From assembly GCA_025403435.1 (NCBI GenBank), contig CM046341.1, positions 20,297,460 to 20,361,459 of the forward strand: a stretch of DNA of 64,000 nucleotides, given 5' to 3'. The notes under the pieces are model-generated. The model had not been told where the DNA came from, did no database searches, and saw only the letters and a program-made list of their open reading frames with translations. How positions within the stretch are numbered: the first letter of the stretch is position 1; the number at the start of each line of letters is the position of its first letter. Of this stretch, positions 1-58,793 are shown piece by piece. Origin of the DNA: Artocarpus heterophyllus (lineage: Eukaryota; Streptophyta; Magnoliopsida; Rosales; Moraceae). Both the position numbers and the translations under genes were made by a program.

Positions 1-1410
1 TCTGGGATTTGAGAAAAATAGGTTAAAATGAAGATTTGTGTTTTGGGAGACCTAAAACCCGTGCCTGAGATTTCTGGAAATTTTCCAGTTTGGCAGGCCG
101 AACTTTGTGCTCGGTAGGCCAGATTCAAATGATCGGTAGGCTAGATTCATCCATCCAGCGGGCCAAACCTGAAGAATGTTCGACCGATCAGACTTGTCCT
201 CCGGCAGGCCGAACTATGCTGTTCAGCTAGCCGAACCAGGGAGACCAGCAGGCCAACCAAACTAGGGCAAAATTTTGTGATTTCCATCCGTTTTCATTGC
301 TTTGAACCCTGATTGAAATTCCAACCTTATAAAATGATTTTAAAGGTACAAATGGTACACTAGGACATCATGAAATGGTTTAGTAATATAGTATTTCTCA
401 AACTAGATATTGATCGACTTAGTGTGTATCTAGGATCGTTTGTGTTTTCGCGGAGCTAACGTATAGTGGACCGGGATTACTGTGTGGGGCACTGGTACAA
501 GTATCGAGGTAGGACTTCTCCCCTTCTTTGGTAACCAGTTTCAAAATGATTTGACTTTGAAAAGGGTTTTTATAAAAATATTTTCAACGGTTGATTGAAA
601 ATGAAATTTATCGATTGTATTTCTATGACCCGTGGTCCAAAAATGAACTCCATAATGAACTTCATAATGAATGATAATGAAAATATCTGATAAATGGATT
701 TTGAATAATGTTAGAGATAAATATAAGGGCATGATGTCATATCAGAGATCGGGTCGTGTAGCGATCGACCTTGGGGGTAGGTCTCGAAACCCGGTTGGGC
801 CACTACGGTGGTGGTATTCATGTGGTTTGCCGAGGAAAAGAGAATGATGATATTTCTGGTCGATCAAATAAACTGTTTTTGGTAAGAACGGTTTTATTTA
901 AATTTATTCACTCGAGTTTTCTTTTAAATAATCTCTTGAATTATGATATTTCTTTTCAAACTAAATGAATTTTTTTTATATAGTCCTATTGAGCCTTTTG
1001 CTCACATTTCATTTATTTTCAAATTTCTCCCTCTAGGTGGATTTCCACATAGGTTCAGAGAGGACTCAACGGATAGAACTTAGGAGCAGTAGAGAACTAG
1101 TAAATTATTTGTAATAATTAAACAAGGCATGTAATGTTTTAACTTTCCTTGTGCTTGGGCTGCAGTTGTATTATTATAATGTCAGTACAATGTGTGTGCA
1201 CAAGCTGTGGGTTAGTGGAATTCATACTCGCTATATTTATTGCTTATTTCTTGCTCAATGAATTTATCTGTTCAAAGAATATGAATTCTTTTACTAAATG
1301 GTCTTTTTGGAAAATTTCATATTTTTATATTTAATTTAACCCCTAAAACTCTTGATTTTAATTAATTTAAATAATCTGTCACGTCACCTCCCGTACTCTA
1401 GGGCATGACA
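1..1410 (+). repeat. 5' LTR of G1 (3' two thirds only)
   Basis: It aligns along its whole length with about 9793-11189, the 3' LTR. Both copies share the actgagcc/ctcacattt stretch, the 22-bp GC-rich array and the terminal CGTGACA/CATGACA. The last bases, GGGCATGACA, are followed at once by a tRNA-Met primer site. The first roughly 790 bp of the LTR lie to the left of the window. Relative to the 3' LTR it has one extra unit of the 22-bp array, and scattered substitutions are mostly transitions. Confidence 0.93.
90..255 (+). repeat. 22-bp dyad-core tandem array in G1 5' LTR, about 8 units
   Basis: Units built on GGCAGGCCGAAC start near 92, 113, 135, 157, about 179 (degenerate), 203, 225 and 247, a period of 21-24 bp and mostly 22. 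The core TTCGGC-AG-GCCGAA is an inverted repeat with a 2-bp spacer. The bases between cores are not conserved, so the pattern looks like spaced binding sites rather than a simple minisatellite. It follows another dyad, CTGGAAATTTTCCAG, at 74-88. Confidence 0.85.
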
Positions 1411-1413
1411 AAA

Positions 1414-1425
1414 TGGTATCAGAGC
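1414..1425 (+). other. G1 primer-binding site (tRNA-iMet)
   Basis: TGGTATCAGAGC lies 3 bp after the LTR end and matches the standard plant retrotransposon primer site complementary to the 3' end of initiator tRNA-Met. It fixes the LTR boundary at 1410 and the element's orientation as plus. Confidence 0.92.
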
Positions 1426-1515
1426 CCAAGGTTATGAACCTTGGAAATTGTGCACACATATGTATGGCAATGAAATACCTCTGATAGTCCAAATTTTGTT
1501 TTCAGAAGTGAGAGG

Positions 1516-2699: not shown

Positions 2700-5600
2700 G
2701 TAGTCGATGGTACGATCTTAGTTTTTAAATCCTTAGCTCACGTTTTATTTGATACAGGTGCTACTCATTCTCTCATTTTGAGTTCTTTTATACATGCCTT
2801 GGGACTAGAGATAGAAGATTTTAATGAACCCTTAGTCATAGCTTCTCCCTTGGGGTGGGTGTGTGTGAATTGTGTATGAAATCTTGTAAAATAAAGATTG
2901 GGGATGAAATTTTGAAAAGTGATTTGATTATACTCCCCATGAGCTCATATGATGTAATTCTAGGGATGGACTGGTTGTCTAGGTATAATGCAGTTGTAGA
3001 CTGCCAACTTAGAAAAGTGACCATAGTGTCTGATAAGGGGATGATGATCACTTACTAAGGTGGTGGTGATCGGTTAATGAGTGAGCGTCTCATGAAGTCA
3101 TGTATTGGAGGGTGAAGAAATCTGGTTTGTCATACTTTTCTTACGAATCTAGAGTGCAAGCCCTATACCTTGCGAGGAAATGTAGCGATTCTGGTGGTTG
3201 ATGAGTATGAGGATGTCTTCCCCGATGAGTTGCCAGGATTACCACCGCATCGAGAAATTGAGTTTGGTATTGAATTGTTTCTGGGGACAGCACTGATTTC
3301 TATAGCACCTTATCGGATGGCGCTGGCAAAAAAGAAAGAATTGAGGAAGCAACTTTAGGAGCTTGCTGATAAAGGGTATATTCGAAATAGCAAATCTCCA
3401 TGGGGAGCACCGGTTTTGTTTGCTAAGAAACATGATGGGACTCTCAGGTTATGTGTAGATTATTGACAGCTAAATCATGTTACAATGAAAAATAAGTATC
3501 CCTTGCCTAGGATCAATGAGTTGTTTGATCAACTAGGAGGTTCGTGGTACTTCTCAAAGATTGATTTGCTGTTGGGTTACCATCAACTCAGGATTAAGGA
3601 AGAGGATATTCCCAAGACAGCTTTTGGGACCCGGTATGGGCATTTTGAGTTTATGGTGATGTCGTTTGGGTTGACGAATGCCCCGGTGGCTTTCATGGAT
3701 TTGATGTATAGGATATTTAGGCCATATATGGATCAGTTCATGATTATGTTCATCGATGACATTCTAGTATATTCTAAGACTTGGGAGGAGCATGAGCAGC
3801 ATCTCTGGATCGTGCTTTAGACTCTGCGGGAACACCAGTTGTATGCCAAGAGAGAAAAGTACGAGTTTTGGTTGACTGAGGTCAAATTTCTGGGTCATGT
3901 CATCTCTAAGCATGGTATTTCTGTGGATCCGTCCAAGATTGAAGCCATAGTGGAATGGGATCGACCAAGGAATGTAGCAGAAATTCGTAGCTTCTTGGGT
4001 CTTGCTGGTTATTACAGAAAATTTGTAAGGATTTTTTGAAGGTTGCAGCTCCAGTTGACGAGGTTGATCAAGAAGAATGTCAGGTTTAGGTGGGATGAAG
4101 AATGTGAGCTTGCTTTTCAGGAATTAAAAAACCGGTTGACTTCAGCCCCAGTGTTGGTTATTCCTAGCAATGACGAGCCGTATAAGGTTTACGCAGATGC
4201 TTCAGGACGCAGACTTGGATGCGTGTTGATGCAGCATGGGCACATGGTTGCATACAGATCAAGACAGCTACGGCCTTACGAGCGAAATTATCCTACTCAC
4301 GACTTGGAGCTCGCAGCGGTGATTCATGCGCTGAAGATTTAGAGTTGTTATTTGTATGGAGCGACATTTCAGGTCTTCTCTGATCATAAGAGTTTGAGGT
4401 ATCTGTTCACTCAGAGGGATCTTAATTTGAGGTAGCGGAGATGGATGAAGTATATGGAGGATTATGATTTCGCGTTGCAGTACCATCTCGGGAAAGCTAA
4501 TATGGCCGTGGATGTGCTTAGCAGGAAGTCTTCAGGGATTCTCGCTTGTTTGGCTCTTGAGGACTGGAGCAGGGATGCGACAGTGAGTGAGTATAAACTA
4601 CGGTATCATGAAGACTATGATCGAGTTTTGGTATATCATATGGAGGTGACGCAAAATCAGTGGTGAAGCAGATGGTGAAGCAAAATCAGTGGCAGGACCA
4701 GCATTTGCAGGAGATTTTGATGCAGATTCAGAACGAAGAGCGGTTTGAAGAATGGAGAGTGCATGTAGACGGATCGTTATATTTTTGGGAACGTCTTGCA
4801 GTTCCAGCTATCGCAGAGGTAATGAAAGCCGTTATGGACGAAGCCCATAGGTCTCAGTTCGCCATTCATCTGGGGAGCACAAAGATGTATCATGATTTAA
4901 AGAGGTAATATTGGTGGAGAGGCATAAAGAAAGATGTTCGAGAATACGTGGCCAAGTGTACGACGTGTCTTCAGGTGAAAGCCAAGCATCAGAAGCCAGC
5001 GGGTTAGCTTCAGCCGCTTCTTATTCTAGGGTGAAAATGGGAGCATGTGACGATGGATTTTCTCATAGGTTTGCCGAGGACGGAGCAGCGGCATGATGCA
5101 GTTTGGGTCGTGGTCGACAGATCGACGAAATCAAAGCATTTAATTTTATTCAGGTCGACATGTTCTAGGAGGATTCTCGGGGATTTGTATCTGCAAAACA
5201 TAGTGAGATTGCATGGAGTTCCTTTGTCCATCACTTCTGATCGAGACACCAAGTTTAATGCTAAGTACTGGAGGAGTTTTCAAGAGGCTTTGGGTATAGA
5301 TTTGAACTTCAGTACGGCGTTTCATCCTCAGACTGATGGGCAGTTATTCAGATTCTGGAGGATATATTGCGTGCTTGTGCGTTGGACTTCGGCGGGAATT
5401 GGAAGAAATATTTGCATCTGGCAGAATTTGCGTACAACAATAGCTATCAAGCGAGTATTGGTATGGCACCGTTTAAGGCGTTGTATGGGCGATCGTGTCA
5501 GTCACCGGTGTGTTGGGCAGAACCGAAAGACAGGGTTATTTTTGGGCTAGATGAGATCCATGATAGCAATGAGAAAGTAGCCATGATTCGAGATCGATTG

Positions 5601-5902
5601 AGGGTAGCTCAGAGTCAACAAAAGAGTTATGCGGATGGAAGACGTCGACCCTTAGAATTTGCAGTAGGAGATTTCGTTCTCTTGAAAGTATCACCTCGTA
5701 AAGGAGTTATGCGGATCGGAGTGAGTGGAAAGCTTGTACCGAGGTATATTGGACCGTTCGTGATCACTCAACATGTTGGTGTGGTTGCTTATGGGCTCGA
5801 CCTTTCGCCCGAACTCTCTCATGTTCACGATGTGTTCCATGTGTCGATGCTTAGGAAGTGTTCGCCTGAGCAGGGTAAGATAGTTTCATTTCGTGATGTA
5901 CA
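2700..5902 (+). pseudogene. G1 pol: protease, reverse transcriptase, RNase H, integrase (broken)
   Basis: Protease shows the catalytic FDTGATHS at 2748-2771. RT runs from about 3200 to 3820, with the catalytic FIDD in [14 protein letters not shown] near 3747-3790, and continues with [10 protein letters not shown] at 3890. RNase H of the Ty3 type (YADASG) starts near 4190. Integrase has an HHCC zinc segment near 4840-4980, the first Asp in MDFLIGLP at 5050 and the second in TSDRD near 5235. The catalytic Glu region after HPQTDGQ (5340) has a short deletion with a frameshift. At least seven in-frame stops interrupt the region, nearly all one transition away from Gln, Arg or Trp codons. Confidence 0.9.
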
Positions 5903-6127
5903 TGTAACACCTGCCTATTTTTATGTAATGAATCACGTTAAGTTAGTAACAACGTTAATGAAATTTTATGATATATGATGTTAATGTTACTAACTTTTTA
6001 TGTCAAGTTATATGACAGGTGATGACCGCATGTAATCGTTGTGCTCAAGTGTTCATGATTATTTTAATGTATGTTTAATTATGATGTAATGATGACTTAA
6101 ATATTTTAATGTTTGGTATTTAAGGAC

Positions 6128-6225
6128 AGTTCGACAGGCCGAACAGTCTGCCAAAGATAGACAGGCCAAAGGAAACCATCGGTAGGCCGAACGTGGTGGA
6201 ACCAACAGGCCGAACACAGCTGACG
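6128..6225 (+). repeat. 21-22-bp dyad-core array, left cluster of solo LTR
   Basis: Cores of the GRCAGGCCGAAC type start near 6133, 6160, 6181 and 6204. This is the same orientation as in the G1 LTR, although the LTR is otherwise dissimilar. The cluster lies about 230 bp from the left LTR terminus. Confidence 0.75.
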
Positions 6226-8289
6226 AGCAGTCAGCAGAAATCTCTCCAAATTTATGACTGAGTTAATTACGTTAAATGGGTGATTCATTGTGATTAATTG
6301 GCATAATAATGGAATAATTTTGTCAGTTAAGGAAATTAAAAGGTTAACTCTACATTGATTTGTCTGATTTTAAATGGTTTCCCATTTTAAGAGGGCAAAA
6401 CATGGTAAGTATAGAGTGATTGTTTGACTTTTCTTCTTTCTTTCCTTTTCTCCACGCCAATTAGCACCATTTGAGTCAGAAAATTCTGACTTAATGGAGG
6501 GAATTGAATTCCCATCAATTATGCTCATTATGTTAAAATTTTTAATGTTCCGTTTTTATTTTTTTTTTCTCATTCTCATGTTTCTCTCTCTCAAACTTCT
6601 GAGACGTTTGTTTTTTTCATTCTTCTTCTCTTCTCCACGAATCCTATCTCCCTCTCTCTCAAAAATTCTCTGCAAGTATTGAAAGAAAAAAAAAAGGTTA
6701 TTTTCGTTGGTTAAATTTAAGAATTTTGAGAAGAAATTTTCAAGGTAAGAACTTTTCTGGTAATTTTGAAAAGAATTCTTCTCCTCCAATCGCTTGCAAA
6801 AATCTTTCTATAGGTATTGTATTTTTGCCCTAAGTTTTAATATGATGTTCATGTGTGTATTGGGTGTTGTTTTTCCAAGTTTCATGTTATTCTGGTGTTT
6901 TTATGAAAAATATGAATTTTCTATCCTTTACCCCTTACAGTAAAATATTACTGTTTAACATTGATGCATGAAAAATGTAATGTTTATTCAAGACGTAAAT
7001 GAATGATGTTTTCATGAAAGTTGTCAAGAATGTACATGTATAATGTATGATGAATGTATTTTATTTTATGAAATGTTTTATAAGTTTAAAGGATTTTGAT
7101 TGATGATGAAATATTTTTATGATGTTGGAATATATGATAATAAGATGTTTGTATGAATTTTTAAAATGTAGGTATATTAAATTATTAGAAAACGTTTTCA
7201 AAAGATTTTCATATTTATAATGTATGAAATGTTTTGATGATAATATTTAAGGAAACATGTTATGAATAATGTTTATATATGATGATAATTTTATGTTGTC
7301 ACAATGATGATTATGAATTGTGTTTGTAATATGAGATGAATGTATATATGAATGTTATATGAATGATTGTTTTATGATAAGTATTAATTTTATTGTATTT
7401 TTAAATGGATAAATGGCATGAACACTCAAAGAAACGAGCACTTCGAGACCGCGACATCGTCACCAAAAGTATATTAAGGTTAAGTAAGCTAGCGTTAAGG
7501 TAAGTACATTCTCACTTGCAACATGATACGTTTTACAAGGTTTGATGATATATTCACAAGTTATTCATGATGATTTTATGGTTATTTTTCCTTAAAGGAT
7601 TTCTTATGAAAAATTATCATGATTTAGAGTTATGTATGTATGATGATGACATGTTTCAAAGTATGAAAATTATGTATTATGTATCACCTAATAAGTGTTG
7701 CACACCAATGTTATGAAATGAAATGTTATGATGTCATGTTTGGTTTGGGATTAGCTACCCTTCTCCTCTCATGACGGCGCGCCTACAATGATGTTCATGG
7801 TGCAACACTTGGGCCCTTAAGATAAAATGGAATAAGTTTTAATATGGTTAATGTAATGAAAGATATGTTTCTATGAAATTGTGCTTAAGGCACTTTTATG
7901 ATACGATGACAATGATAATGATGATGATGTATATGAAATGTTTTTAAATATGAGAATTATATGTACTTACTAAGCATTAGCTTAATCAAGTTTTATGTCA
8001 TGCTGCAGATAAGGGTAAGAAAACCATGGAATAGGCGGAGGACATGGGAAGGCGTGTGAGCACAAAGCACGATGAATTGTAACTGGAAGAACGCCAAGAA
8101 GAATTTTTTTTTATGTTTTAATTCAAGTTTTATATTTTGAACATATTTTTTTTATGTTAAGTTTTAAGAATACTTGAACTATGGTTTTATACTTTATTTT
8201 ATCATTTTAAAGAATTTTGATCTTTCTGCAATTTTTATGAAAAGTTAACTCTGTTTTACAAATTAAGTTTTTCTCCAGGATCTTGGCTC

Positions 8290-8462
8290 GGTCGGCCTGC
8301 CGAAGGTCATGGGTCGGCCTGCCGATGTTTGGAAGTTCGGCCTACTGATCACGTTTTAGCTTGCCGGATGATGATGAGTTTTTAATCCAGATTTGCAAGG
8401 TCTCTACCGGCCTGCCGATCATGTTCGGCCTGCCGAAGTCCCAAGTTCGGCCTGCCGAACTG
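8290..8462 (-). repeat. 21-22-bp dyad-core array, right cluster of solo LTR (inverted)
   Basis: GGCCTGCCGA cores start near 8294, 8316, 8339, 8409, 8427 and 8449. They are in the opposite orientation to the left cluster of the same LTR, about 320 bp from its right terminus. The two clusters could pair with each other in a transcript that spans the LTR. Confidence 0.75.
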
Positions 8463-8784
8463 TTGGGGTAAATGAGTTATAAACAATGTGATGTTTTAAA
8501 CGATGTGGTGTTTTTATAAGTTACGATTTTACAACTTGGTATACCTATTCTATAAAAATAATTTTATGATTAATTTAAAGTATCATTAAATAAATGATGA
8601 TATGGAATAAGTTAAACAATGATATTGTTTTATAAAAAAAATGTATGAATGGGTCCTGGTTAAGTATGTTTAATTAAAGTATCGTATAAGTTTTGGGCTT
8701 ATGTTCTTGTTTAAAGTTTAAACAAGTATGAATCTATGAAAGTAACGACATATGTGACGTCCATAAAGGGGGTGTTACAGTACA

Positions 8785-8968
8785 GGTTCGGGAAGATATG
8801 ACGTACGAGGAGGTGCCGATTCAGATTATCGATCGAAAAGTAATAAGTTTGCGCCGTTGTGAGATACCATTAGTAAAGGTTGTGTGGCGGCATCACAGGA
8901 TTGATGAAGCCACTTGGGAACTAGAGTCGAGTATGCGGGAGTTGTATCCGCATTTGTTTTGTTTTTAA
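8785..8968 (+). pseudogene. G1 pol C-terminus with chromodomain-like segment
   Basis: The open reading VREDMTYEEVPIQIIDRK, then KVVWRHHRIDEATWELES and a stop at 8966-8968, matches the end of chromovirus integrases. There a chromodomain of the form V.V.W..H...ATWE helps target integration to marked chromatin. It resumes the pol frame that is cut at 5902 by the solo LTR insertion. Between its stop and the 3' LTR lie only about 50 bp ending in the polypurine tract. Confidence 0.85.
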
Positions 8969-9016: not shown

Positions 9017-11189
9017 TGTAACGCCCCGAAATTTATTTAATGATATTGTAGTGTAAAATGATGAATTAGTGTGCCATAACTAAGTTTCAAAAATTAATTT
9101 GATCATTTGGTTAAATTTTGAGTTTTAGGTTGTTTTGTTATTTTAATGAATTCTAATGATTTTTTATTGTTTTAAAATGTTATTTTGGGATCTTAAGACA
9201 AAACAATTTGTAAAATGTTAAATATATTTGGTTTTACAAAACCGTGGGTGGCACATGGTTTTCACACAGTAAAACCGCCCACTTTTCTCTCTATTTAATC
9301 TCTCTCTCACTCTTTCTCTCATTCTCACACTCTCTCTCTCTCTCCCCGTGACACTCTCTCTCTCACTCTCCCTCTCGGTTTCTCTCATTCTCTCTCTTTT
9401 TTCTCTCAAATTTTTGAAGCAAAATTTGAATCCAAGCTTCGGGTTCATGAGTAGGAAGCTCAAGGACGTGATTTGGTAACCAAGAACGTGATTTAAAGCT
9501 TCGATTCGAGGTTAGTTTTGAAATTTCTAAACTTTTTCTAAATTTTCAATTTTACATGCATTTTGAAATCTAAGTTTGTTTGAGCTTAGAAAACCCTTGA
9601 TTTGAGTTAAAGGAACTTAGAACAACTAGAATCTATGCTTTGTTTGAAGAAAAACGGATTAGATTCAAGATTTTTTATTTTTTCTCATTTTTCCCTATTT
9701 TTGGATTTTCTTGGATTTTGTGTTCAAATCTTGTTTAAATGAGTTCAAAAGTGTCCTAGTATGTTTTTTTATCATCTATGATTGTTTTCTATGACTAGGA
9801 TTTGAGAAAAATAGGTTAAAATGAAGATTTGGGTTTTGGGAGACCCAAAACCCATGCCTGAGATTTCTGGAAATTTTCCAGTTCGGCAGACCGAATTCAA
9901 ATGATCGGCAGGCCAGGTTCATCCATCCGGCAGGCTGAACCTAAAGAATGTTCGGTGGACCAGACTTGTCCTCCGGCAGGCTAAACTATGTTGTTCGGCC
10001 GGCCGAACCAGGGAGACCGGTAGGCCGACCGAACTAGGGCAAAATTTTGTGATTTCCATTCGTTTTCATTGCTTTGAACCCTGATTGAAATTCCAACTTT
10101 ATAAAATGATTTTCAAGGTACAAATGGCACACTAGGACATCATGAAATGGTTTAGTAATATAGTATGTCTCAAACTAGATATTGATCGACTTAGTGTGTA
10201 TCTAGGATCGTTTGTGTTTCTGCGAAGCTAACGCATAGTGGGCCAGGATTACGGTGTGGGGCACCAGTACGGGTATCGAGGTAGGACTTCTACCCCTTCT
10301 TTGGTAACCCAGTTTCAAAATGATTTGGCTTTGAAAAGGGTTTTTATAAAAATATTTTCAACGGTTGATTGAAAATGAAATTTATCGGTTGTATTTCTAT
10401 GACCCGTGGTCAAAAAATGAACTCCATAATGAATGATATTGAAAATATCTGGTAAATGGATTTTGAATAATGCTAGAGATAAATATAAGGGCATGATGCC
10501 ATATCAGAGATCGGATCATGTAGCAATCGACCTTGGGGGCAGGTCCTGAAACCTAGCTGGGCCACTACGGTGGTGATATTCATGTGGTTTGCCTAGGAAA
10601 AAAGAATGATGATATTTCTGGTCGATCGAATAAACTGTTTTGGGTAAGAACGGTTTTATTTAAATTTATTTACTCGAGTTTTCTTTTAAATAATCTCTTG
10701 AATTATGATATTTCTTTTCAAACCGAATGAATTTTTTTTATATAATCCTACTGAGCCTTTCGCTCACATTTCATTTGTTTTCAAATTTCCCCCTCTAGGT
10801 GGATTTTCACATAGGTTCAAAGAGGACTCAATGGACAGAACTCAGGAGCAGTAGAGAACTAGTAAATTATTTGTAATAATTAAACAAGGCATATAATGTT
10901 TTAACTTTCTTTGTGCTTGGGCTGCGGTTGTATTATTATAATGTCAGTACAATGTGTGTGCACAAGCTGTAGGTTAGTGGAATCCATACTCGCTATATTT
11001 ATTACTTATTTCCTACTCAATGAATTTATCTGCTCAAAGAATATGAATTCTTTTACTAAATGGTCTTTTTGGAAACTTTCATATTTTTATATTTAATTTA
11101 ACCCTTAAAACTCTTGATTTTAATTAAATTCTCATTTTAATTAATTTAAATAATCTACCACGTCATCTCCCGTACTCCGGGGCGTGACA
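9017..11189 (+). repeat. 3' LTR of G1, complete (2173 bp)
   Basis: It starts TGTAACGCCCCG directly after the polypurine tract AGGGGTGGAGAG (9004-9015) and ends GGGGCGTGACA at 11189. A possible TATA-like sequence (TATTTAAT, about 9292) is followed by a long CT-rich tract (9300-9400) that may mark the start of R. The 22-bp array here (about 9884-10035) has about seven units against eight in the 5' LTR. The missing unit corresponds to about 102-125 of the 5' copy. Confidence 0.93.
9884..10035 (+). repeat. 22-bp dyad-core tandem array in G1 3' LTR, about 7 units
   Basis: This is the same array as at 90-255, one unit shorter. One unit, GTTCGGCCGGCCGAAC near 10001, is an uninterrupted palindrome. 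Most other units have one or two C-to-T or G-to-A changes in the core. Confidence 0.85.
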
Positions 11190-37074: not shown

Positions 37075-37262
37075 GGTCGGCAGGCTGATCTAGGTGATCG
37101 GCCTACCGATCATGGAGGTTCGGCCTGTCGAACATGAAGGTTCGGCCTACCGACAGAGCACCAAAATTTCTGCCCCACTGTCGGCTTGCCGGACCTTACG
37201 TCCGGCCTGTCGATTTGTGACCTTCGGCCTGCCGAACTGTGAGGTCCGGCATGCCGACCGAG
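37075..37262 (-). repeat. 21-22-bp dyad-core array in copia B leader
   Basis: About nine cores of the TTCGGCCTGCCGAAC family are spaced mostly 21-23 bp on the plus strand. In element orientation they read GGCAGGCC, the opposite of the array in the element's own LTR. Confidence 0.8.
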
Positions 37263-43336: not shown

Positions 43337-43586
43337 ATGATTCATGGTTGCACATCCCTAGGTGGTGATTATAAATCATGGACAAAATATTGAAACGGTT
43401 GTGATACACTCACGTTAATTTTATTATTAACCTCCCCTAGGAGCTCTGTTAATAAAATTAATGGCCAAAGAAACGATTATTAGTATATGCTGGATCATAT
43501 GGGTCCTGGATGGCATATATTAATCAGGAGGGGATCCGTGTTCCTGATTGAATTTAGCATGACTCCCCTAGGAGCTTGTTGAATTC
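43337..43586 (+). promoter_or_regulatory. Copia C leader stem-loops with CCTA loops
   Basis: Hairpins lie at 43337-43379, 43415-43461 and 43550-43586, upstream of the gag start at 43738. The outer stem of the second pairs TTAATTTTATTATTAAC with GTTAATAAAATTAA with a 3-nt bulge. Inner stems are CATC/GGTG (one mismatch), CTCC/GGAG and CTCC/GGAG around CCTA. Confidence 0.6.
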
Positions 43587-43737
43587 TGAGTTGGGAATTA
43601 TCATTGTAAGGTTGTGATATTTTCAAGGTTTTGACACATAAACACATTTGTATGATTTTACATGATTGTGTTATCTTACTAAATTATTATATATGTTTGC
43701 TTATGTTTGGTATATGATTCTTTATTGTAGATTGAAA

Positions 43738-47697: not shown

Positions 47698-47711
47698 TGC
47701 AAGTGGGAGAT

Positions 47712-49737
47712 TGTTAGACATGTATGCCCTAAGGAGTAAAAAAATGTAATACGTTTTTGGAGACATTTTTATCAATAAAGAATTTATTTATTTATATATA
47801 CTAAATCTTGTCCTCTTTGCGTTCATATTTGTTGAATGTATGATAAGCAAACAGTAGTCTGAGACTGTCAGTCTAAACCTTAAGAATTGGGCATATGATG
47901 GACTGATTATGCGAAAGACACGATTCTTAAGGTGATGGTCTAAAACATATGATCCGCAATCGAGGGAATAAAGTTGGGCGCTTTATTCATGTAAAGATTG
48001 TTATGTTGTCTATATCCCTTTTGGGAGATGGTTTGTCTTGACCATTGGAGTTGGACTCTGTGAATAGAAACATTGGCACGTTGTCATGGTGACGATGTGT
48101 TGGATCGGGACATAAAGTGAATTGATTTGGATTAATAATTTTTTCTCGGCAAATCGATTCACTTTAGACAGTCATTTGTATTGTATCTTAATCCTGAGAT
48201 GAATAGTGGGCCTGTTGTCTCGACTTGTGTCTTTTGATGTGCCAAAGGGTGACACCCACATCTCTATAGTGGTATGCATGCCGGTACATTGGAGGCATGA
48301 CTCATAATAGTGTAGACTTGTTATTCATAGATATAGAATCCATAGCTCCTCTTTAGGACTAATGATATCCTCTTATATGTGTTGTCTTGTAATTGAAAAA
48401 CTGGAGCGCTCAACCATTTGGATACATAGGTGTAACCGAATGGTATACTATCTTTGGATGGTAAGTTTTCTAATAGTGAGACAATGGAACGTAAGATAAA
48501 AATAATCGGGAAGGTAAGACAGAACTTGTCCTTAAGCCGCTTATGGATTATCATATGGGGATACGATACACTATGGTATGTCATGGAGACTTAGCTACAT
48601 GAGCTTCGAAATTCTATAAAGTTTGAGAGTGCAACTCCAAGCTTTTAGTGGAGTAGCGTTGGAGTTGATAATTGTGAAATGTATATCTGGGATATTGGGT
48701 TTCATAATTATCATGAGCTTGAACTTTATAGGTCCATTTTGGTCCCTTTGGCTAGCTCACAAAGTCCTGTAACGACACGGCGTGCTTTTCCAGTAATTGG
48801 TGACTTATGTCGGATTTATCAGATTGGTTTAAAATTTGTAAGAATCAAAAAATTCATGTCTCTTTATCGGTTGAATTAATTTTGTAAGAAATTAGTTCAA
48901 GATAAACTTGTTGAATTATTGCGATCAGATAATTCTTGTCTGTTTATCGGTTGTTTTAATTTTGGACAAATTAGAACAAGATAAACTTGTAGAATTATTG
49001 TGAATTGATTTATTTTCTTAGAGATTATCTTGATAAAGTTTGTTTTGATCAGATAACTTCTCTATTGGGTTATTTGATTCAAAACTGAAACTTTATCCTT
49101 TAGAATCTCGGGTGGAAAATAAAAGATTCGTGGAGATTTTTTCTCTAGAGTTCGGCCTGCCAGATGACGTGGTCGGCCTGCCGAACTAGCCTGTTCGGCA
49201 ATGTTTGGCTTGCCGATCAGCGAAGATAAGATTACATATTTTCACGCGGATCTTATCAGATATTGATCTGAACTTGATTCTGTTACGAGTTTTTGAGACC
49301 TAATCTGATACGGACTGACCCCAGACCAATAGCTATAAAAAGGGAATGAGTCTTATGATTTACTCAGATCAATTTGAGAGATTAAGAGTGATACTCTTCT
49401 AGTGAGCATCTGAAAACTCCCTGAGAGCTTTTGTTCACAAATCACGAGCACTAGCTTTGGGTTCTCTCTATTGATTGGAAGGAGAGTCACCGGTGGAAGA
49501 GCTGTACTTGTGAGCCCGCACTCACTCCGGTTGTGGATAGAGAATAGCAAAGAAGACCAGTTGGTTGAGGCTCTTCTGGAACTGTTACTTCTCTATGCAG
49601 GTTGCGGAGGTTCTTCGGCACACTGAGGTTAGTAAGATCTGTCTAATTTATACATATAACATGTCAAACTTGTGTTTTGGAAATTACTCTGATGGAAAAA
49701 AATTTTAAAAATTCCGCTGCGTACTTTGTTTCCAACA
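47712..49737 (+). repeat. Copia C 3' LTR (2026 bp)
   Basis: It is preceded by the polypurine tract AAGTGGGAGA (47701-47710). The TATA box is at about 49333-49342. The dyad cluster (49153-49218) has cores at 49153 and 49174 and a disturbed third unit, differing from the 5' LTR array by an insertion. The remaining LTR sequence is close to the 5' copy. Confidence 0.95.
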
Positions 49738-49742
49738 GTTGT

Positions 49743-51209
49743 ATGCATGCTGGTACGTTGGAGGCATGACTCTTGATAGCGTAGAGTTGGTATTCATAGA
49801 TATGGAATCGATAGCTCCTCTTTAGGAGTAATGATATCCTCTTATATGTATTATCCTGTAATTGGAAAACTATAGCACTCAACCATTTAGATACATTGGT
49901 GTAACTGAATGGTATACTGTCTTTGGATAGTAATTTTTCTAATGTTGAGATAATGGAACGTAAGATAAAAATAATCAGGAAGGTAAGACAGAACTTGTCC
50001 TTAAGCTGATTATGGATTATCATCTGGGGATACGATACACTATGATATGTCATGGAGACTTAGCTATACGAGCTTCGTAATTCTATGTAGTTGAGAGTGC
50101 AGCTCCAAGCTTTTAGTGGAGTAGTGTTGGAGTTGATAATTATGAAATGTATATCTGGGATATTGGGTTTCATAATTATCGAGAGCTTGAACTATATAGG
50201 TCCATTTGGTCCCCCTTTGCTAGCTTACAACATCCTGTAACGACACGACGTGTTTTTCTAATAATTGGTGACTTATGTCGGATTTATTAGATTGGTTGAA
50301 ATTTGGAAGAATCAAATAATTCATGTCTGTTTATTGATTGAATTAATTTTGTAATAAATTAATTCAAGATAAACTTGTTGAATTATTGGGATCGAATAAT
50401 TCTTGTCTGTTTATCGGTTGATTTAATTTTGGATAAATTAGATCAAGATAAACTTATAGAATTATTGGGAATTGATTTATTTTCTTAGAGATTATCTGGA
50501 TAAAGTTGTTTTGATCAGATAACTTCTCTATTGGGTTATTTGAATTAAAACTAAGACTTTATCTTATAGAATATCGAGTGAAAATTAAAAGATTCATGAG
50601 ATTTTTTATTCGGCAGTTTGGCCTGCCAATGGACGTGTTCAGCCTGCCGATCAGGTGATTCGGCCTGCCGATCAGGTGGTTCGGCCTGCCGATCAGCGAA
50701 GGATAAGATCACGTATTTCCACAAGAATCTTATCAGATATTGATCCAAATCTGATTCTAATCTAAATTTTGAGACCTAATCTGATGAGGACTGACCCTAG
50801 GACCAACATCTATAAATAGGAAGTGATTCTCACAAGTTACTTAGATCAATTGAGAGATTAAGAGAGATACTCTGCTACTGAGAATCTAAAACTCCCTGAG
50901 AGCTTTTGTTCACAAATCACGAACACTTGCCTTGGGTTCTCTCGATTGGTTGGAAGGAGAGTCACCAGTGGAAGAGCTGTACGTGTGAGCCCACACTTAC
51001 TCTGGTCATGGATAGAGAATAGCAAAGAACACCAGTTGGTTAAGGCTTTTCTGGAACGTTACTTCTCTTCACGTTTTGCGAGAGTTCTTCGGCACACAAT
51101 GGTTAGTAAGATCTGGTTAACTTATGCATATAGCATGTCAAACTTGTGTTTTAGAAATTACTCTAATGAAAAAATTTTTAAAACTCTGTTGCGTACTCTT
51201 TTTTTAACA
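49743..51209 (+). repeat. Copia A 5' LTR, last piece
   Basis: It resumes with ATGCATGCTGGTACGTTGG, matching the LTR text just after the C insertion point, and ends TTTTAACA at 51209. The primer site TGGCATCAGAGC (51212-51223) follows. It contains a TATA box, TATAAATAGG, at 50811-50820. Confidence 0.93.
50612..50695 (-). repeat. 21-bp dyad-core array in copia A 5' LTR
   Basis: GGCCTGCC cores start at 50620, 50641, 50662 and 50683, an exact 21-bp period. The array lies about 120-190 bp upstream of the TATA box, in the U3 promoter region. The matching array in the 3' LTR (about 58190-58270) has more substitutions. Confidence 0.88.
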
Positions 51210-51702
51210 ATTGGCATCAGAGCCATGGTTTTTACATAAATTTATGAGTTTGTGATCATGTTATATGCATAAATTTTGTGATCTTAATCTCTCCTATGCT
51301 TGAATTTAATTTTATAGAGAGTTGGCACTCTAGGTTTCTATAAATTATAAATGTTGTCATAGATTATGTGGTGACTATTTATTAATTAATTATGGTTGAT
51401 TAAATCGTTGTTTAATTATTAATTATTTAATTTATACCGGTTATGGCTCCTTAGAGGTTAGATGTGTATCTAGGTTTTTCATGTAATTAGATGGTAGACT
51501 ATCATCTCCATCTAGGAATTATTATTTATTTTAAATTTGTAAGAATTTTGTAATTAAATAATTATTCAGAGAAAACGAATCTAGAAGATTGATGATGATG
51601 CTCCTAAGTATTTCCTGAGTCTCTAATTTTATGTTTTTGAATTGTTGAAAATAAAATTGATAAATTGCTTTAAAATTGTATTTTCTAAAATAGAGATTTC
51701 TG

Positions 51703-51900
51703 CTCGGTCGGCATGCCGAACATCACAGTTCGACAGGCCGATGGTCATAGATTGGTAGGCCAGACGTGTGGTTCGACAGGCCGTCAGTGGGGCAGAAATC
51801 AGCTAGCTCTGCCAGTAGGTCAAACTTTCATGGGTCGGCAGGCTGATGGAGCATGACCGGAAAATCAATCATCCAGGTCGGCTTGCCGACCGAGAGCTAG
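51703..51900 (+). repeat. 21-22-bp dyad-core array in copia A leader
   Basis: This decayed array, with TCGGCATGCCGAAC, GTTCGACAGGCCGATGG and similar units, lies about 500 bp downstream of the 5' LTR. It is in the opposite orientation to the LTR array, as in copies B and C. Confidence 0.75.
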
Positions 51901-52456
51901 AAAATTTCCAAAAAAGGTGTAGTTTTTTAATGTAGTTTTAATTTTATTTTTGGGACAATTCTGAGAAACATTAAATTTGGATATGACCAGAAATATGAAG
52001 TGTTCAATTCATACGGGATTGAAGACTTAAAGATGGAATTACATGAAGAAGGATACAGCTTGAGGATTCAAGGATGAAGAATCAATAATATGTCTCGATT
52101 ATTCTCTTGTAATCTTAGTTTTCTATTCTCGAGAATGGAGCCATAATATTACGATTATATATTATTTTGCTTGTGGTTTTGCTTGATTGCTTTGCTTGTC
52201 TACATTATAATATGATTTTCCATGTATATTGATAAAATGTCAAATAGAATAGGGAGTGCCGCTCATATTAAAATTTTTCATGCATATTCTTAAAATAAAA
52301 CCTTGATTTCTAAAGATTGAGTGGGAGAAGGTTTTCAAAGAGAGGACCTAAGGCCTCCATCATTGGTACATAGGCAGAACATGGTGGTCTCGGGCCCTAG
52401 GAAAGGATTTCTATCATGTACCAGATTGGTTCTTTGAGAGGATAAGGTATTTTAGC

Positions 52457-52706
52457 ATGATTTATGGTTGCACACCACTAGGTGGTGATTATAAATCATG
52501 GATAAAATATTAAAACGATGGTTATACACTCACTTTAATTTTATTATTAACCTCCCCTAGGAGCTCTGTTAATAAAATTAATGGCCAAAGAAACGATTAT
52601 TAATATATGCTGGATCATATGGGTCTTGGATGGCATATATTAATCAGGAATGAATCCGTGTTCCTGATTGAATTTGGCATGACTCTCCTAGGAGCTTGTT
52701 GAATTC
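52457..52706 (+). promoter_or_regulatory. Copia A leader stem-loops with CCTA-type loops
   Basis: Three potential hairpins lie at 52457-52499, 52535-52581 and 52670-52706, just before the gag start at 52860. They have the same outer AT-rich stems and inner 4-bp stems as copies B and C. Here the first loop is ACTA, and the third inner stem is CTCT/GGAG, which keeps pairing through a U-G wobble. Confidence 0.6.
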
Positions 52707-52859
52707 TGAGTTGGGAATTATCATTGTAAGGTTATGATATTTTCAAGGTTTTGACACATAAACACATTTGTATGATTTTTACATGATTGTGTTGTCTTAC
52801 TAAATTATTATTATATGTTTGTTTATATTTGGTATATGACTCTTTATTGTAGATTAAAA

Positions 52860-55800
52860 ATGTCTAAAAATGCTTTATCATTGATGCTTGACAAAAACCA
52901 ATTAACCGGTGAGAACTATAACGATTGGAAATGGGACCTGGATATTGTCCTGTCCTTTGAGAAACTGAAATATGTTCTGACAACCCCTTGTCCTCCCGAG
53001 CCTATGGGAGACTCAAGTAATGAGCAATTCCAAGCGTATGATCACTGGAAAGATGCAAATGATCAGGCCCGCTGCTATGTTATGGCTAGCATGAACAATG
53101 TGCTGCAGGCTCAACATCAGGATTATGAGACTGCGAAGCAGATCTTGGATAATCTTGAAGATATGTTTAGAGGCCAAGCCATAACAAAGCAGCAAGGGGC
53201 GCTTCAGAAACTTCTAAACTATAGACAGAGGCCGGGGACATCTGTAAAGGAGCATATGATGTTGGTCATGGGTTACCTCGCTGAGGCTCAAACCAATGGA
53301 ACCAACATCGATGCTGAAACTTAGATGACTATGGTCTTTGAGACTCTATCTAAGAAATTTGTTCCGTTTAGAGCTACTTTTAATTTAAGCAATAGACGGA
53401 TATGACCTTAACAGAACTGATGAAACAGTTACAAGAGTTCAAACTGCTGATTAGGGAGTCTCCTGCGGGTGGTGAGGCCAACATGGTAGCTGCTTATGGT
53501 TCCAATCCTAACTCTGGGATTGGAAAAAAGCAACAGGCTAAAAAAAAGAAGTCTTCTATTCCTGCTACTACCAAGAGCAAGAAGAAGAACCCGAAGAAGC
53601 TTAAGTGCTTCTTCTGTGGAAAGGTCGGGCATATCAAGAAGCATTACAAGGACTTCATTTCAAAGGAGGTAGGTGTGATCTTCTATATTTACAAACTTGT
53701 TTGGTTGAGGAATACAGTGACATCTGGGTCATAGATTTCGGTGCAACTAATCATGTTTGTGTTTCTCTACAAGGGTTCAAAGAAACGAGAAGTCTGCTAC
53801 ATGAGGACTTCACGCTTCGGATGGGCGATGGATCCTTGGTCTCAGCGAAAGCAGTGGGAGACGTCCATCTTTATTTTAATAATTATAGGAATTTATTTTT
53901 GCAAGATTGTTTTTATATTCCTAAATTTAAAAGGAATTTAATTTATGTTGCTTGTTTATTTAAAGACTCCTATTTGGTTTCTTTTAATGATAAAGTGGTG
54001 ATTCGTAAAACAAATCTTTTATCTGTTTTGGATGGATGCAAAATAATCTATATTTTATCAAACCTAAGATGGACTTATTGCTTAATGCTGAGATGAATGA
54101 TAATAACTCTAAAAGACTTAAAACTTTTTACTCTAATAAGACTTATCTTTGGCATTTGCGCCTTGGTCATATTAACCTGAATAGGATTCAAAGGTTGGTA
54201 AGGGATGGACCTTTAAGTCACTTAAAGGTGGAATCTATACCTCAATGTGAGTCTTGTTTGGAGGGTAAAATGACCAAAAGACCATTTGGGTCTAAGGGCA
54301 ATCGGGCCGAAGGGATTCTAGAACTTGTGCATAGTGATGTTTGCGAACCGATGAACATCTGGGCACGAGGAGGGTATGAGTACTTTGTCACTTTTATTGA
54401 GAAGTTCAGGGAGTTTCGGGCTGAAGTGAAAAAGTAATTGGGTAGACCCATAAAGGCACTTCGATCAGATTGAGGTGGGGAATACCTTTTTGATGAGTTC
54501 TTGGAACACTTGTTAGAGAATGGGATTTTGTCCCATTTGACTTTATCGGGCACTCCGCAACAGAATGGCGTAGCGGAGAGAAGAAATAGGACTTTGTTGG
54601 ACATGATTGGGTACATGATGAGTTATTCATCATTGCCTTTATCCTTTTGGGGATATGCACTACAAACCGCATGTTATCTTTTGAGCAACATGCCTTCAAA
54701 ATCGGTCCCTAAAACTCCTCACGAGTTGTGGGCGAGTAGGAAGACATCCTTAAACCATATTCACATATGGGGATGTTCAGCTCATGTCCTGTGTAAGGAT
54801 CTGAATAAGTTGGAAGCACATTCGAAAGTTTACGTGTTTATAGGATATCCAAATGGGACTAAAAGGGGTTATTTTTATAACCCAAAGAAAAATAAAGTCG
54901 TGGTTTCAACTAATGCAACTTTTCTTGAGGAGAGTTATATGGACAACTTTAAACCTCGAAGCAAAGTGGTGCTCAAGGAGTTAAGGAGTGATCCGACCAC
55001 TCCGAAGGTTCTGAATGAAACCATTCTGATCGGTGTAGAAAAACCAAACAAACCAGATCAACAACCTCAAGGGCTTCGCCGTAGTGGGAGGATCAGGCGT
55101 CAACTTGAGAGGTATATGTTCAATGGGGAGGTCTTTTTGGCTGAACCGGATGAACATGATAGGGATCCTTATACTTACGCAGAAGCTATGGAGGATGTTG
55201 ATTCAAAACTCTGGACAAAGGCCATGAACATTGAGATGAAGTCTATGGAGACTAATCAAGTCTCGGAGCTTGTGGATCTTCCTGTAGGGGTAAAACCCAT
55301 AGGGTGTAAGAGGATCTACAAGAGGAAAAGAGGAGTGGATGGAAAGGTTGAAACCTTTAAGGCTATACTGATAGCTAAGGGTTATATGCAAAAGGAAGGA
55401 ATCAATTATGAGGAAACCTTTTCGCCTGTAGCCATGCTTAAGTCCATCTAGATTCTCTTATCCATAGCTGCAGCTCTCGACTACGAGATTTGACAGATGG
55501 ATGCCAAGACGGCTTTTCTGAATGGCTATCTTGATGAGTCCATTTGTATTGAACAACCAGACAGGTTTAAGGTCATGGGTCAAGAGGATAAGGTTTTTAA
55601 GCTACTAAAGTTAATTTATGGACTTAACTAGGCTTCGTTCTTGGAACATAAGATTTGATCAGGTGATCAAGACTTATGGGTTCTCACAAAATGTGGATGA
55701 ACCATGTGTTTATAAACACATTAAGGATGGGAAGATGGTTTTTCTACTGCTCTATGTAGATGACATTCTGTTGATTGGCAATGACGTTGGGGCATTGTCA

Positions 55801-56742
55801 TCGGTCAAATTATGGTTGACCAAGCAGTTTGACATGAAGGACTTAGGAGAGGCTAATTTTGTTCTCGGTATCCAGATCTTTCGAGATAGGAAGAACAAAA
55901 TGATAGCTTTGTCTCAGGCCAGCTACATAGGTAAAATTCTCAGGAGGTTTGCAATGCAGGATTCCAAGAAAAGTGGGCAACCATCTAGGTTTGGAATTAC
56001 TCTTTCTAAGAAAGACTCCCCAAAGTCTTATGAAGAAAGAGAATACATGAATAAGTTGCCTTATGCCTTGGCAGTAGGCAGTCTCATGTATGCCATGCTT
56101 TGCACTCGACTAAATATTAGTTATACGGTCGGGATTGTAAGTCGATTTTAGGCGGATCTAGGACCGAACCATTGGGTTGTGGTAAAGCATATTTTCAAGT
56201 ACCTGAGAAGGACTCGAGGGTATATGCTTGTATATTTAGGTGAGGACCTGACTCCTTTAGGATATACTGACTCGGATTTTCAATCCTGTCTGGATTACAG
56301 GAAATCGACTTCAGGTTTTGTGTTTACTCTGGGCGGTGGTGCCATCAGTTGGAGAAGTGCTAAGTAAGATTGCACTTTGGATTCAACAATGAAGGCCAAG
56401 TATGTGGCAGCTAGTGATGCTTCGAAAGAAGCAGTGCGGCTCCGCAAGTTCCTCGGGGATCTTGAGGTAGTTCCTGGTATGGACAAAGCGATATCACCAT
56501 ACTGTGAAAATAGTTCGGCGGTAGCTAATGCTAAGGAACCAAGATTTCACAAGAAGAGTAAGCACATTGATCGGAAGTATCATGTGATAAAGGACTTCGT
56601 TGAAGGCGGGCACGTCACGGTGTGCAAGATCGCATCAGAGGACAATTTAGCTGATTCATTTACGAAGACACTTATTGGGAGAGTCTTTGAGTGGCATGTG
56701 GAAGCTATGAGGATGCGAGATTTGTCATATTTACTCACTTAG
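52860..56742 (+). pseudogene. Copia A gag-pol, broken
   Basis: The ATG at 52860 opens [19 protein letters not shown]. The Gag UBN2-like region follows to a stop near 53324. The zinc knuckle [14 protein letters not shown] (about 53598-53640) has its last Cys changed to Tyr. Protease reads VIDFGATNH, so the catalytic Asp-Ser-Gly has become Asp-Phe-Gly. Integrase lacks about 20 residues after VTFI (near 54400) and has stops at about 54435 and 54470, both also present in copy C. RT keeps YVDD near 55757, with stops near 55449, 55491 and 55629. RNase H runs to 56742 with stops near 56149 and 56366. It cannot make a working polyprotein. Confidence 0.92.
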
Positions 56743-56756
56743 TGCAAGTGGGAGAT

Positions 56757-58793
56757 TGTTAGACATGTATGCCCTAAGGAGTAAAAATGTAATATGTTTT
56801 TGGAGACATTTTCATCAATAAAGAATTTATTCATTATTTATATACCAAATCTTGTCCCCTTTACATTCTTATTTGTTGAATTATGTTAAGCAAACAATAG
56901 TGTAAGACTGTCGGTCTAAACCTTAAGAATTAGGCAGACGATGGATGGATTATGCAAAAGACACGATTCTTAAGTTGATGGTCTAAATCATACGATCCGC
57001 AATCAAGGGAATAAAGTTGGGCGCTTTATTCATGAAAAGATTGTTATGTTGTCTATATCCCTTTTGGGAGATAGTTTGTCTTGGCCATCGAAGGAAGACT
57101 CCATGAATAGAAACATTGGCACGTTGTCATAAGTGACGATGTATTGGATCGGGACATAAAGTGAATTGATTTGGATTAATAATTCTGTCTCGACAAATCT
57201 ATTCACTTTAGACAATCATTTGTGTTGTATCTTAATCTTGAGATGAATAGTGGGCCCGTTGTCTTGACTTATGTCTTTTGATGTACCAAAGGGTGACACC
57301 CACATCTTAATAATGGTATGCATGTTGGTACATTGGAGGCATGACTCTTGATAGTGTAGACTTGTTATTCATAGATATGGAATCCATAGCTCCTTTTTAG
57401 GAGTAATGATATCCTCTTATATGTGTTATCTTGTAATTGGAAAACTAGAGCTCTCAACCATTTGGACACATAGGTGTAACCGAATGGTATGCTATCTTTG
57501 GATGGTAAGTTTTCTAATGGTGAGATAATGGAACACAAGATAAAAATAATCGAGAAGGTAAGACATAACTTGTCCTTAAGCCGATTATGGATTATCATAT
57601 GGGGATACGATACACTATGATATGTCATAGAGACTTAGCTATACGAGCTTCGTAATTCTACGTAATTCGAGAGTGCAGCTCCAAGCTTTTAGTGGAGTAG
57701 CGTTGGAGTTGATAATTATGAAATGTATATCTGGGATATTGGGTTTCATAATTATTGGAAGCTTGAACTAGATAGGTCCATTTGGTCCCCTTTGCTAGCT
57801 CACAACATCCTGTAACGACAAAACGTGTTTTTCTAATAATTGGTGACTTATGTCGGATTTATTAGATTGGTTGAAATTTGGAAGAATCAAATAATTCATG
57901 TCTGTTTATCGGTTGAATTAATTTTGTAATAAATTAATTCAAGATAAACTTGTTGAATTATTGGGATCGGATAATTCTTGTCTGTTTATCGGTTGATTTA
58001 ATTTTGGATAAATTAGATCAAGATAAACTTGTAGAATTATTGGGAATTGATTTATTTTCTAAGAGATTATCTAGATAAAGTTATTTTGATCAGATAACTT
58101 CTCTATTGGGTTATTTGAATTAAAACTGAAACTTTATCCTATAGAATCTCGGGTGGAAAATAAAAGATTCGTAAGATTTTTTATTTGGTAGTTCGTCCTG
58201 TCGATGGACGTGTTCGGCCCACCGATCAGGTGGTTCGGCCTTCCGATCAAGTGGTTCGGCCTGTCGATCAGCGAAGGATAAGATCACACGTTTCCACGTG
58301 GATACGTGGATCTTATCAGATATTGATCCGAATTTGATTCTAATCTGAATTTTAAGACCTAATCTGATGAGGACTGACCTGAGGACCAACATCTATAAAT
58401 AGGGAGTGATTCTCACAAGTTACTTAGATCAATTGAGATATTAAGAGAGATACTCTGCTACTGAGAATCTGAAAACTCCCTAAGAGCTTTTGTTCACAAA
58501 TCACGAACACTTGCTTTGGGTTCTCTCGATTGGTTGGAAGGAGAGTCACCGGTGGAAGAGCTGTACGTATGAGCCCACACTCACTTCGGTCGTGGATAGA
58601 GAATAGCAAAGAAGACCAATTGGTTGGGGCTCTTCTAGAACGTTACTTCTCTTCACGTTTTGCGAGAGTTCTTTGGCACACAAAGGTTAGTAAGATCTGG
58701 TTAATTTATGCATATAGCATGTCAAACTTGTGTTTTAGAAATTACTTTGATGAAAAAAATTTTAAAACTTCGCTGCACACTCTTTTTCCAACA
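56757..58793 (+). repeat. Copia A 3' LTR (2037 bp)
   Basis: It is preceded by the polypurine tract AAGTGGGAGA, starts TGTTAGACATG and ends TTTCCAACA. It has a TATA box, TATAAATAGG, at 58394-58403 and a 21-bp array at about 58190-58270. Many substitutions separate it from the split 5' LTR, more than separate the LTR pairs of B or C. Confidence 0.94.
58190..58272 (-). repeat. 21-bp dyad-core array in copia A 3' LTR
   Basis: Four units correspond to those at 50612-50695 with several transitions, including GGCCCACC, GGCCTTCC and GGCCTGTC cores. The 21-bp spacing is kept. Confidence 0.8.

Follow-up and report, generated by a model that had tools for sequence, protein, structure and literature searches.

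The window analysed here, a stretch of 64,000 nucleotides of Artocarpus heterophyllus (contig CM046341.1, positions 20,297,460 to 20,361,459, forward strand), carries retrotransposons of the Ty3 and copia (Ty1) superfamilies, and our subject is one short palindrome that is arrayed in their long terminal repeats (LTRs) and, in the copia elements, also in the 5' leader. The unit of these arrays, which we call word 1, is the 14-letter palindrome TTCGGC-NN-GCCGAA (TTCGGCNNGCCGAA), and the mismatch limit is stated with each count. The Ty3 part comprises element G1, whose 5' LTR is cut by the window edge, a solo LTR of a second family (S1) holding two arrays of opposite orientation, and an LTR at 24 kb (S2) that is 72-77% identical to the G1 LTR and whose array is among the most decayed ones. 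The copia part comprises three elements, A, B and C, whose DNA is about 87-96% identical (A and B, 93% over 9.7 kb; C and A, 89-90%), and these are therefore one family and not independent hosts. The number of units amounts to 16 in copia A (LTRs and leader together), to 2-5 per copia LTR and to 5-8 per G1-type LTR.

The original prediction had described the hosts as unrelated Ty3 and Ty1 retrotransposons. The sharing between Ty1/copia and Ty3 holds, and carriers of these two superfamilies cannot share an ancestral LTR; the unrelatedness does not hold for copia A, B and C, nor for G1 and the LTR at 24 kb, which are related to each other. When S1 was compared with the G1 LTR in the self-comparison of the window, no match of at least 80 bp was found at E 1e-5. 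At another genomic locus (L048), an S1-type LTR starts directly behind the end of a Ty3-type integrase (SH3_Tf2-1, 97 bits) and a stretch resembling a chromodomain, and since both run into the LTR, S1 can be assigned to Ty3 on the + strand. The Chromo profile gave 17.9 bits at L048 and 17.0 bits in G1 (SH3_Tf2-1, 81 bits), in the expected place but below the cut-off of 25.1 in both cases, and the G1 and S1 lineages are probably chromoviruses.

Abundance and spacing of word 1

The palindrome arrays are real and stand well above chance. Against a background of 20 dinucleotide shuffles, the window contains 5 exact units (0 in the shuffles), 21 units at up to one mismatch (0), 44 at up to two mismatches (mean 0.8, maximum 3) and 73 at up to three mismatches (mean 9.15, maximum 15). 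Fourteen arrays, covering 1,926 of the 64,000 bases, hold all 44 units at up to two mismatches and 64 of the 73 at up to three, and the remaining 9 equal the chance expectation. These fourteen arrays (Table 1) lie where the original prediction had located arrays of the core, and the variant cores that it had named, GGCATGCC and GGTAGGCC, are present, the former in three copies and the latter in five on the + strand. Its spacings were also read correctly, being exactly 21 bp in the 5' LTR of copia C (units at 50617, 50638, 50659 and 50680) and 21, 22, 21 and 21 bp in copia A (units at 30606, 30627, 30649, 30670 and 30691).

When units at up to four mismatches are considered, 38 of 57 gaps in the window are 21 or 22 bp. 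Addition of 25 arrays from fetched loci gives 39 arrays with 223 units and 184 gaps, among which 21 bp occurs 56 times and 22 bp 61 times (117 of 184), while 20 and 23 bp add 25. Throughout the genome (985,004,640 bases in 334 contigs), exact word 1 occurs 33,063 times, compared with 27 occurrences of a control with reversed letters. A FAS1 gene from a randomly drawn stretch of this assembly has its nearest relatives, along its entire length, in Morus notabilis (86%) and Ficus carica (85%), as suits a Moraceae-like plant. Pairs of exact copies number only 13 for the seven spacings of 14-20 bp, 1,987 for the two spacings of 21-22 bp and 2,619 for the thirty spacings of 23-52 bp; the pairs of this last class were, among the matches listed, all spaced by 43 or 44 with an exact or slightly altered unit midway, and thus represent two periods.

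The profile of 64 units is that of a near-symmetric site with a centre of mostly AG (A in 59 and G in 54 of the 64), the orientation of each unit having itself been chosen to favour AG. The base before the core is G in 43 of these units and the base after it is C in 50. On the sense strand the centre is mostly CT in copia LTRs and mostly AG in copia leaders and G1 LTRs; because the orientation differs between families, it seems to be irrelevant, as is expected for a near-symmetric dimer site. Across the fourteen arrays, length varies from 68 to 221 bp and GC content from 0.48 to 0.65. The window gave no match to Rfam at the gathering thresholds.

Table 1. Word-1 arrays, the elements that carry them and an accompanying tandem repeat, with positions in the window
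Feature	Position	Strand	Basis or remark
Truncated 5' LTR of G1 (Ty3), word-1 array	85-262	+	word-1 units
Solo LTR S1, second Ty3 family, inside G1 integrase; TGTAACACC...GGTGTTACA	5903-8779	+	target-site duplication GTACA at 5898-5902 and 8780-8784
S1 array a, 4 units, centre AG on +	6130-6214	+	word-1 units
S1 array b, 7 units, centre CT on +, edge GCCGACCGAG (read on -)	8291-8459	-	word-1 units
G1 3' LTR (TGTAACGCCCC...GGGGCGTGACA)	9017-11189	+	window self-comparison
G1 3' LTR word-1 array; TATAAAAT 67 bp downstream	9882-10033	+	word-1 units
Decayed word-1 array in G1-related LTR S2 (aligned stretch about 23521-25573)	24376-24544	+	alignment and units
Copia A; open gag-pol reading frame 32155-36180 on -	30088-39784	-	self-comparison, open reading frame, Pfam
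Copia A 3' LTR array, 5 units (21, 22, 21, 21)	30606-30704	-	word-1 units
Copia A leader array, 8 units, bounded by CTCGGTCGGC and GCCGACCGAG	37076-37258	-	word-1 units
Copia A 5' LTR array, 3 units	38293-38348	-	word-1 units
Copia B, same family as copia A	40054-49738	+	window self-comparison
Copia B 5' LTR array, 3 units; TATAAAAA 118 bp downstream	41476-41532	+	word-1 units
Copia B leader array, 8-9 units; RNA folds as two hairpins	42566-42770	+	word-1 units, fold
Copia B 3' LTR array, 3 units	49151-49217	+	word-1 units
Copia C, same family, 5' LTR truncated	49738-58794	+	window self-comparison
Copia C 5' LTR array, 4 units at exactly 21 bp	50617-50693	+	word-1 units
Copia C leader array, 5-6 units	51707-51890	+	word-1 units
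Copia C 3' LTR array, 4 units at 21 bp	58192-58268	+	word-1 units
Second tandem repeat	30855-31006, 38499-38650, 41170-41325, 48844-49000, 50311-50470, 57891-58045		

Carriers in the genome and further words

We examined 24 loci with the exact word, which were taken from the start of the genome listing and are thus not a random sample, 20 of them having been picked for differing spacing patterns. Because L013-L015 overlap, these loci correspond to 22 non-overlapping places, some of which may be the LTR and the leader of one copy. All belong to three lineages, namely one copia family and two Ty3 LTR families: the first four loci fetched were three copia loci (one place) and one S1-type locus, and the next 20 were eight copia, six G1-type and six S1-type loci. 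Among 20 random 10-kb stretches, arrays of at least three units at up to three mismatches were found in five (L017, L023, L026, L029 and L034), all of which adjoin DNA related to these families, the family of the array in L026 (5201-5368) being judged from the appearance of the array only. Word 1 is shared by copia, in both LTR and leader, and Ty3 elements across three lineages, and is not a property of all elements. The breadth claimed by the original prediction is accordingly too large for word 1, whose sampled carriers are three lineages and not many, and too small for the phenomenon, because a second word behaves alike.

This second palindrome, GGCGCCTAGGCGCC (word 2), forms arrays in two of the 20 random stretches (L021:2914-3102 and L033:3648-3958), and the genome contains 2,665 exact copies of it and none of its control. 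Its spacing is 22 bp in 9 of the 16 gaps under 70 bp. The element in L021 is a copia element (gag and integrase by Pfam) for which no similarity to the window was found at the nucleotide level (E 1e-10), its protein being 36% identical to that of the window copia over 366 residues. The element in L033 is likely of the Ty3-type superfamily, the nearer Ty3-type gag giving 18.4 bits (cut-off 24.1) and a second gag, several kb away, 81.8 bits. Five exact word-2 loci were fetched, representing four non-overlapping places: L057-L059 are of the L021-type copia, and L060 and L061 (one place) are of the L033 type. Two of the three copia-type places are 3.5 kb apart and possibly belong to one element. 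We considered whether L033 is a G1-type LTR whose array has been swapped to GCGCCTAGGCGC, and rejected this, because the longer G1-type homologies of related loci stop at about L033:3455-3460 and the array thus belongs to another inserted element. Word 2, an unrelated palindrome, is found in another copia element and a Ty3-type element, so that word 1 seems not to be the only case in which superfamilies have a word in common.

In a hAT transposon (L024) we found a third array, at 5216-5371 and about 1.4 kb upstream of the transposase reading frame (6761-8881). It consists of TGGGCNNGCCCA units spaced by 23, 25, 48, 25 and 23 bp and may represent ordinary sub-terminal repeats of a transposase. 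Among viral contigs, 11 + 1 stretches fitted the multi-unit patterns; L007 and L012 (parts) look like GC-rich repetitive coding DNA, and these candidates were left unused.

Binding sites, hairpins or copied modules

From these arrays we infer, with a probability that we put slightly above even, that those in the LTRs would be enhancer-like upstream modules of tandem dyads, each bound by a dimer of a host protein, and that unrelated elements would share this factor. Each dyad, having the word (CAG)TTCGGC-AG-GCCGAA(CTG), would be the site for a dimer of a single DNA-binding host protein, and units about two helical turns apart would let neighbouring dimers bind along the same face of the helix. 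The copia array, lying upstream of the TATA box of the LTR, would serve as an upstream activating module. One copia and two Ty3 families would have this word in common through their dependence on a single host factor; it would have come to them by convergence or by module exchange between elements, and word 2 would play the same role in the other copia and the Ty3-type element, presumably with another factor.

Several results are consistent with this dimer-array reading. In all 11 copies of the copia LTR a TATA box lies 117-126 bp downstream of the array, and it follows the word-2 array at 123-152 bp in 4 of 4 copia copies and at 64-65 bp in 2 of 2 Ty3-type copies, the background being 0.46 TATAWA per 200 bp and copies of one family not being independent. 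Differences between copies are fewer in the core than in the spacer for G1 (0.167 vs 0.264) and copia LTR arrays (0.161 vs 0.240). The arm pairs 2-13 to 6-9 of the palindrome show no significant excess of covariation in 153 distinct family-unit combinations, two of the five pairs being slightly above the shuffle mean and three below it. When the spacers alone were shuffled and the cores kept (60 versions; S1 array a left out), z ranged from -1.7 to 0.7 for the copia LTR (5 arrays of 11), from -2.2 to -0.1 for the G1 type (9 of 12) and from -1.3 to 0.5 for S1 array b (4 of 6), and only one of these 18 was matched by as few as 2 of 60 shuffles. The absence of significant inner-arm covariation, together with the little pairing added by LTR spacers, makes hairpins a disfavoured explanation in the LTR, and with the TATA box after the copia LTR array it agrees with the suggestion of the original prediction that a palindrome array spaced by two turns has the shape of protein-binding sites.

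The leader arrays behave differently and bring in the reading that the arrays act as RNA, either as hairpins for packaging or dimerisation or by feeding DCL enzymes and silencing, a role that has been proposed for palindrome clusters in maize Sireviruses. RNA of the copia B leader array folds far below its shuffles (z -6.1), and the leader arrays of all three copia elements form two hairpins, each about 100 nt long; the base pairs at the bottom of the stems lie outside the cores and are mostly invariant. Leader spacers add pairing, with z from -1.3 to -3.4 in six leader arrays and at most 1 of 60 spacer shuffles reaching four of the six. Small-RNA hotspots at palindrome clusters in the LTR control region of maize Sireviruses (PMC5311732, PMC10760457) point in the same direction. 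On the other hand, the consensus fold of the leader has an unfavourable covariation term of +1.44 with a double change in just 4 of 67 pairs, a test of compensatory changes whose power is limited by low divergence; the pairing results of the word-1 LTR arrays given above do not suit RNA, and hairpins need no DNA period of 21-22 bp. As a general explanation we consider the RNA reading unlikely, and a division of roles may be more suitable, in which the LTR arrays are DNA sites and the transcribed copia leader adds an RNA shape in the form of hairpins. Word-2 spacer pairing is the weak point of this division: two of four word-2 LTR arrays are clearly negative in the spacer test (0 of 60 shuffles for L033 and 2 of 60 for L058), which weakens the dimer-array reading and strengthens the RNA reading.

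Further points weigh against dimer-bound DNA sites. Half-sites, spacers and spacing fit a dimer array in the LTRs, but the outermost arm pair, the leader spacers and the two word-2 arrays do not. The outermost pair 1-14 has an excess of matched changes, as the RNA reading would predict, that was reached by 17 of 2,000 shuffles, and by 89 of 2,000 after collapsing across families to 124 distinct units, and the spacer-shuffle z is mildly negative in 16 of the 18 word-1 LTR arrays. Gaps of 18, 26 and 39 bp interrupt the word-1 spacing, and the constancy of the spacing is partly due to tandem duplication, as is seen from near-identical 21-bp units and from the differing unit numbers of the copia A LTRs. 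The TATA box follows the G1-type array in only 4 of 12 cases (61-71 bp), lies within 150 bp of S1 array b in one of six (one having only 49 bp of sequence), and was found in none of two for S1 array a read in reverse. The leader core is not better kept than its spacer (0.176 vs 0.160), and between copies the arrays taken together differ more than their flanks, whose values of 0.10-0.14 are below those of both core and spacer.

The behaviour of CpG sites was also examined. The observed/expected ratio of CpG is 0.49-1.31 over the fourteen arrays, exceeding that of the 300-bp flanks in 11 of them, and is 0.84-1.31 in the nine copia arrays compared with 0.66 for the window. Core CpGs of the leader are better conserved than flank CpGs (0.119 vs 0.242; 42 of 5,000 permutations), but those of G1 (0.201 vs 0.205) are not, and those of the copia LTR (0.143 vs 0.195; 707 of 5,000) not significantly so, which is a further point against the dimer-array reading. 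The first count had given an about two- to threefold protection of CpG in all three classes; when CpG columns were defined by majority, the effect in G1 was removed and the leader alone remained significant, so that we have discarded the general claim. The raised CpG ratio of the copia arrays and the occurrence of the same word in unrelated families would both suit arrays that are host-side targets of a sequence-specific silencing protein, their spread being a by-product or the elements being held by them. Selection would then favour loss of the sites, yet the genome contains tens of thousands of exact words, and we regard this silencing reading as improbable.

How the word came to be shared is related to the context of the core. 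CAG immediately precedes the core in 42 of 202 units, where 3.5 are expected, and does so in all five array classes; CGAG follows the core in 13 of 202, against an expectation of 0.8, in the copia leader, G1 and S1 array b, mostly as the edge GCCGACCGAG. Many units are copies of each other in few families, and the excess should not be read as a probability. Beyond the core, this edge and the preceding CAG are shared as well; the spacers otherwise differ between families. The shared outer context reflects either a recognition site that is longer than the core or what is left of a module copied between elements, and the shared edge favours some exchange. Copia A holds five units in one LTR and three in the other, although these LTRs are 96% alike, so that the number of units in an array changes more rapidly than the LTR sequence. 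These features, the shared context and the differing unit numbers within one element, would also be expected from a functionless module that template switching or ectopic recombination has copied between elements and that persists through tandem duplication and copy-number amplification. Against such a history stand the remainder of the spacers, which is different between families, the core of the LTR arrays, which is better kept than the spacer, and the recurrence of the pattern with an unrelated word in two further elements; we judge it to have only a small probability, little above that of the silencing reading.

VANDAL carriers of tandem motifs are DNA transposons. The targets of their VANC proteins resemble the present arrays in that short motifs are tandemly amplified in non-coding DNA of transposable elements (TEs), words turn over between related elements and binding is sequence-specific, and differ in that the VANC21 word is not palindromic and the binding protein is TE-encoded (PMC5735166). 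By this analogy, a TE-encoded factor might bind the arrays of its own element, words varying by element group. Copia A contains no open reading frame of at least 150 aa besides gag-pol, its pol ends about 14 bp from the 3' LTR, and the same factor would have to be encoded in three lineages belonging to two superfamilies; this is by far the least probable of the readings considered here.

As a generalization of the shared-factor reading, superfamilies in one genome might share regulatory words, i.e. two-turn dyad arrays with one host factor each, which elements join or leave by convergence or module swap. This is a tentative proposal that we hold to be possible but would not yet call probable. 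If it is true, two words, each in a copia and a Ty3-type element, would point to a general layer of TE regulation that extends beyond Sireviruses.

Relation to known arrays and minor observations

Retrotransposon arrays that bind host factors are known: gypsy of Drosophila has Su(Hw) sites in its leader, and Tnt1 and Tto1 have boxes in U3. Their words, hosts and factors are different, and to our knowledge they are not shared across superfamilies. The remark of the original prediction that it knew of no description of this array has to be qualified, because Sirevirus LTRs carry clusters of palindromic repeated motif (RM) boxes upstream of the TATA box, with a CGG-CCG core in 12 of 13 cases (Bousios et al., 2010; PMC2829016); that paper states that RM boxes are specific to Sireviruses and absent from other copia elements. 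Both are high-copy LTR palindromes, word 1 (CGGCAGGCCG) reads CGG-CAGG-CCG and thus contains the CGG-CCG core, words differ between elements while near-identical words occur in distant elements, and extra clusters lie outside the LTR. In contrast to RM boxes, the arrays described here are carried by copia elements without Sirevirus structure and by Ty3 elements, the extra array lies in the 5' leader and not before env, the spacing is 21-22 bp with one word across superfamilies in one genome, and word 2 lacks CGG-CCG. RM-box criteria include at least eight copies per element and clusters that define CpG islands, and Sirevirus criteria include a linker of 0.52-3.96 kb and several polypurine tracts. 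The pol stop of copia A lies about 14 bp before the 3' LTR, in place of such a linker, and there is one stretch like a polypurine tract; judged from this structure, the word-1 copia is not a Sirevirus.

The maize Sirevirus palindromes that are hotspots of small RNAs have a different word and host, and the word-1 LTR arrays look DNA-like and not RNA-like. Structured regions of maize Helitrons, moreover, contain the Sirevirus palindrome as their most abundant motif (PMC10760457), which gives a precedent for sharing across classes. Apart from the Sirevirus papers, we found no description of word 1 and no report of one word common to copia and Ty3 LTRs among the matches listed in a search of titles and starts of abstracts, covering Creative Commons-licensed PubMed Central papers without supplements, and the literature containing the letter string of the word was judged unrelated from title and start of abstract. 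Palindromic LTR arrays have been described in one other retrotransposon group but, as far as found, not with one word common to several superfamilies.

If one host protein reads the tens of thousands of sites, unrelated families would be coupled and would be woken or silenced together by the same signal, and this protein would be a single handle on a large share of the mobile DNA of the genome. The arrays suggest that dyad arrays thought to be special to Sireviruses occur in other copia elements and in Ty3 elements, and the word offers a simple way to decide between DNA and RNA as the form in which such palindromes act.

Three minor observations concern the arrangement of the window. Copia C begins where copia B ends, and its 5' LTR (49738-51213) is about 0.5 kb short, so that the two may be a partial tandem or the result of a truncated insertion. 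All six copia LTRs in the window contain the second tandem repeat listed in Table 1, two copies of about 80 bp that sit about 150 bp upstream of the palindrome array in the sense of the element. Between the Ty3 and the copia elements, the segment 27566-29817 contains open reading frames with Transpos_assoc and DUF4218 domains, which look like those of a CACTA element.

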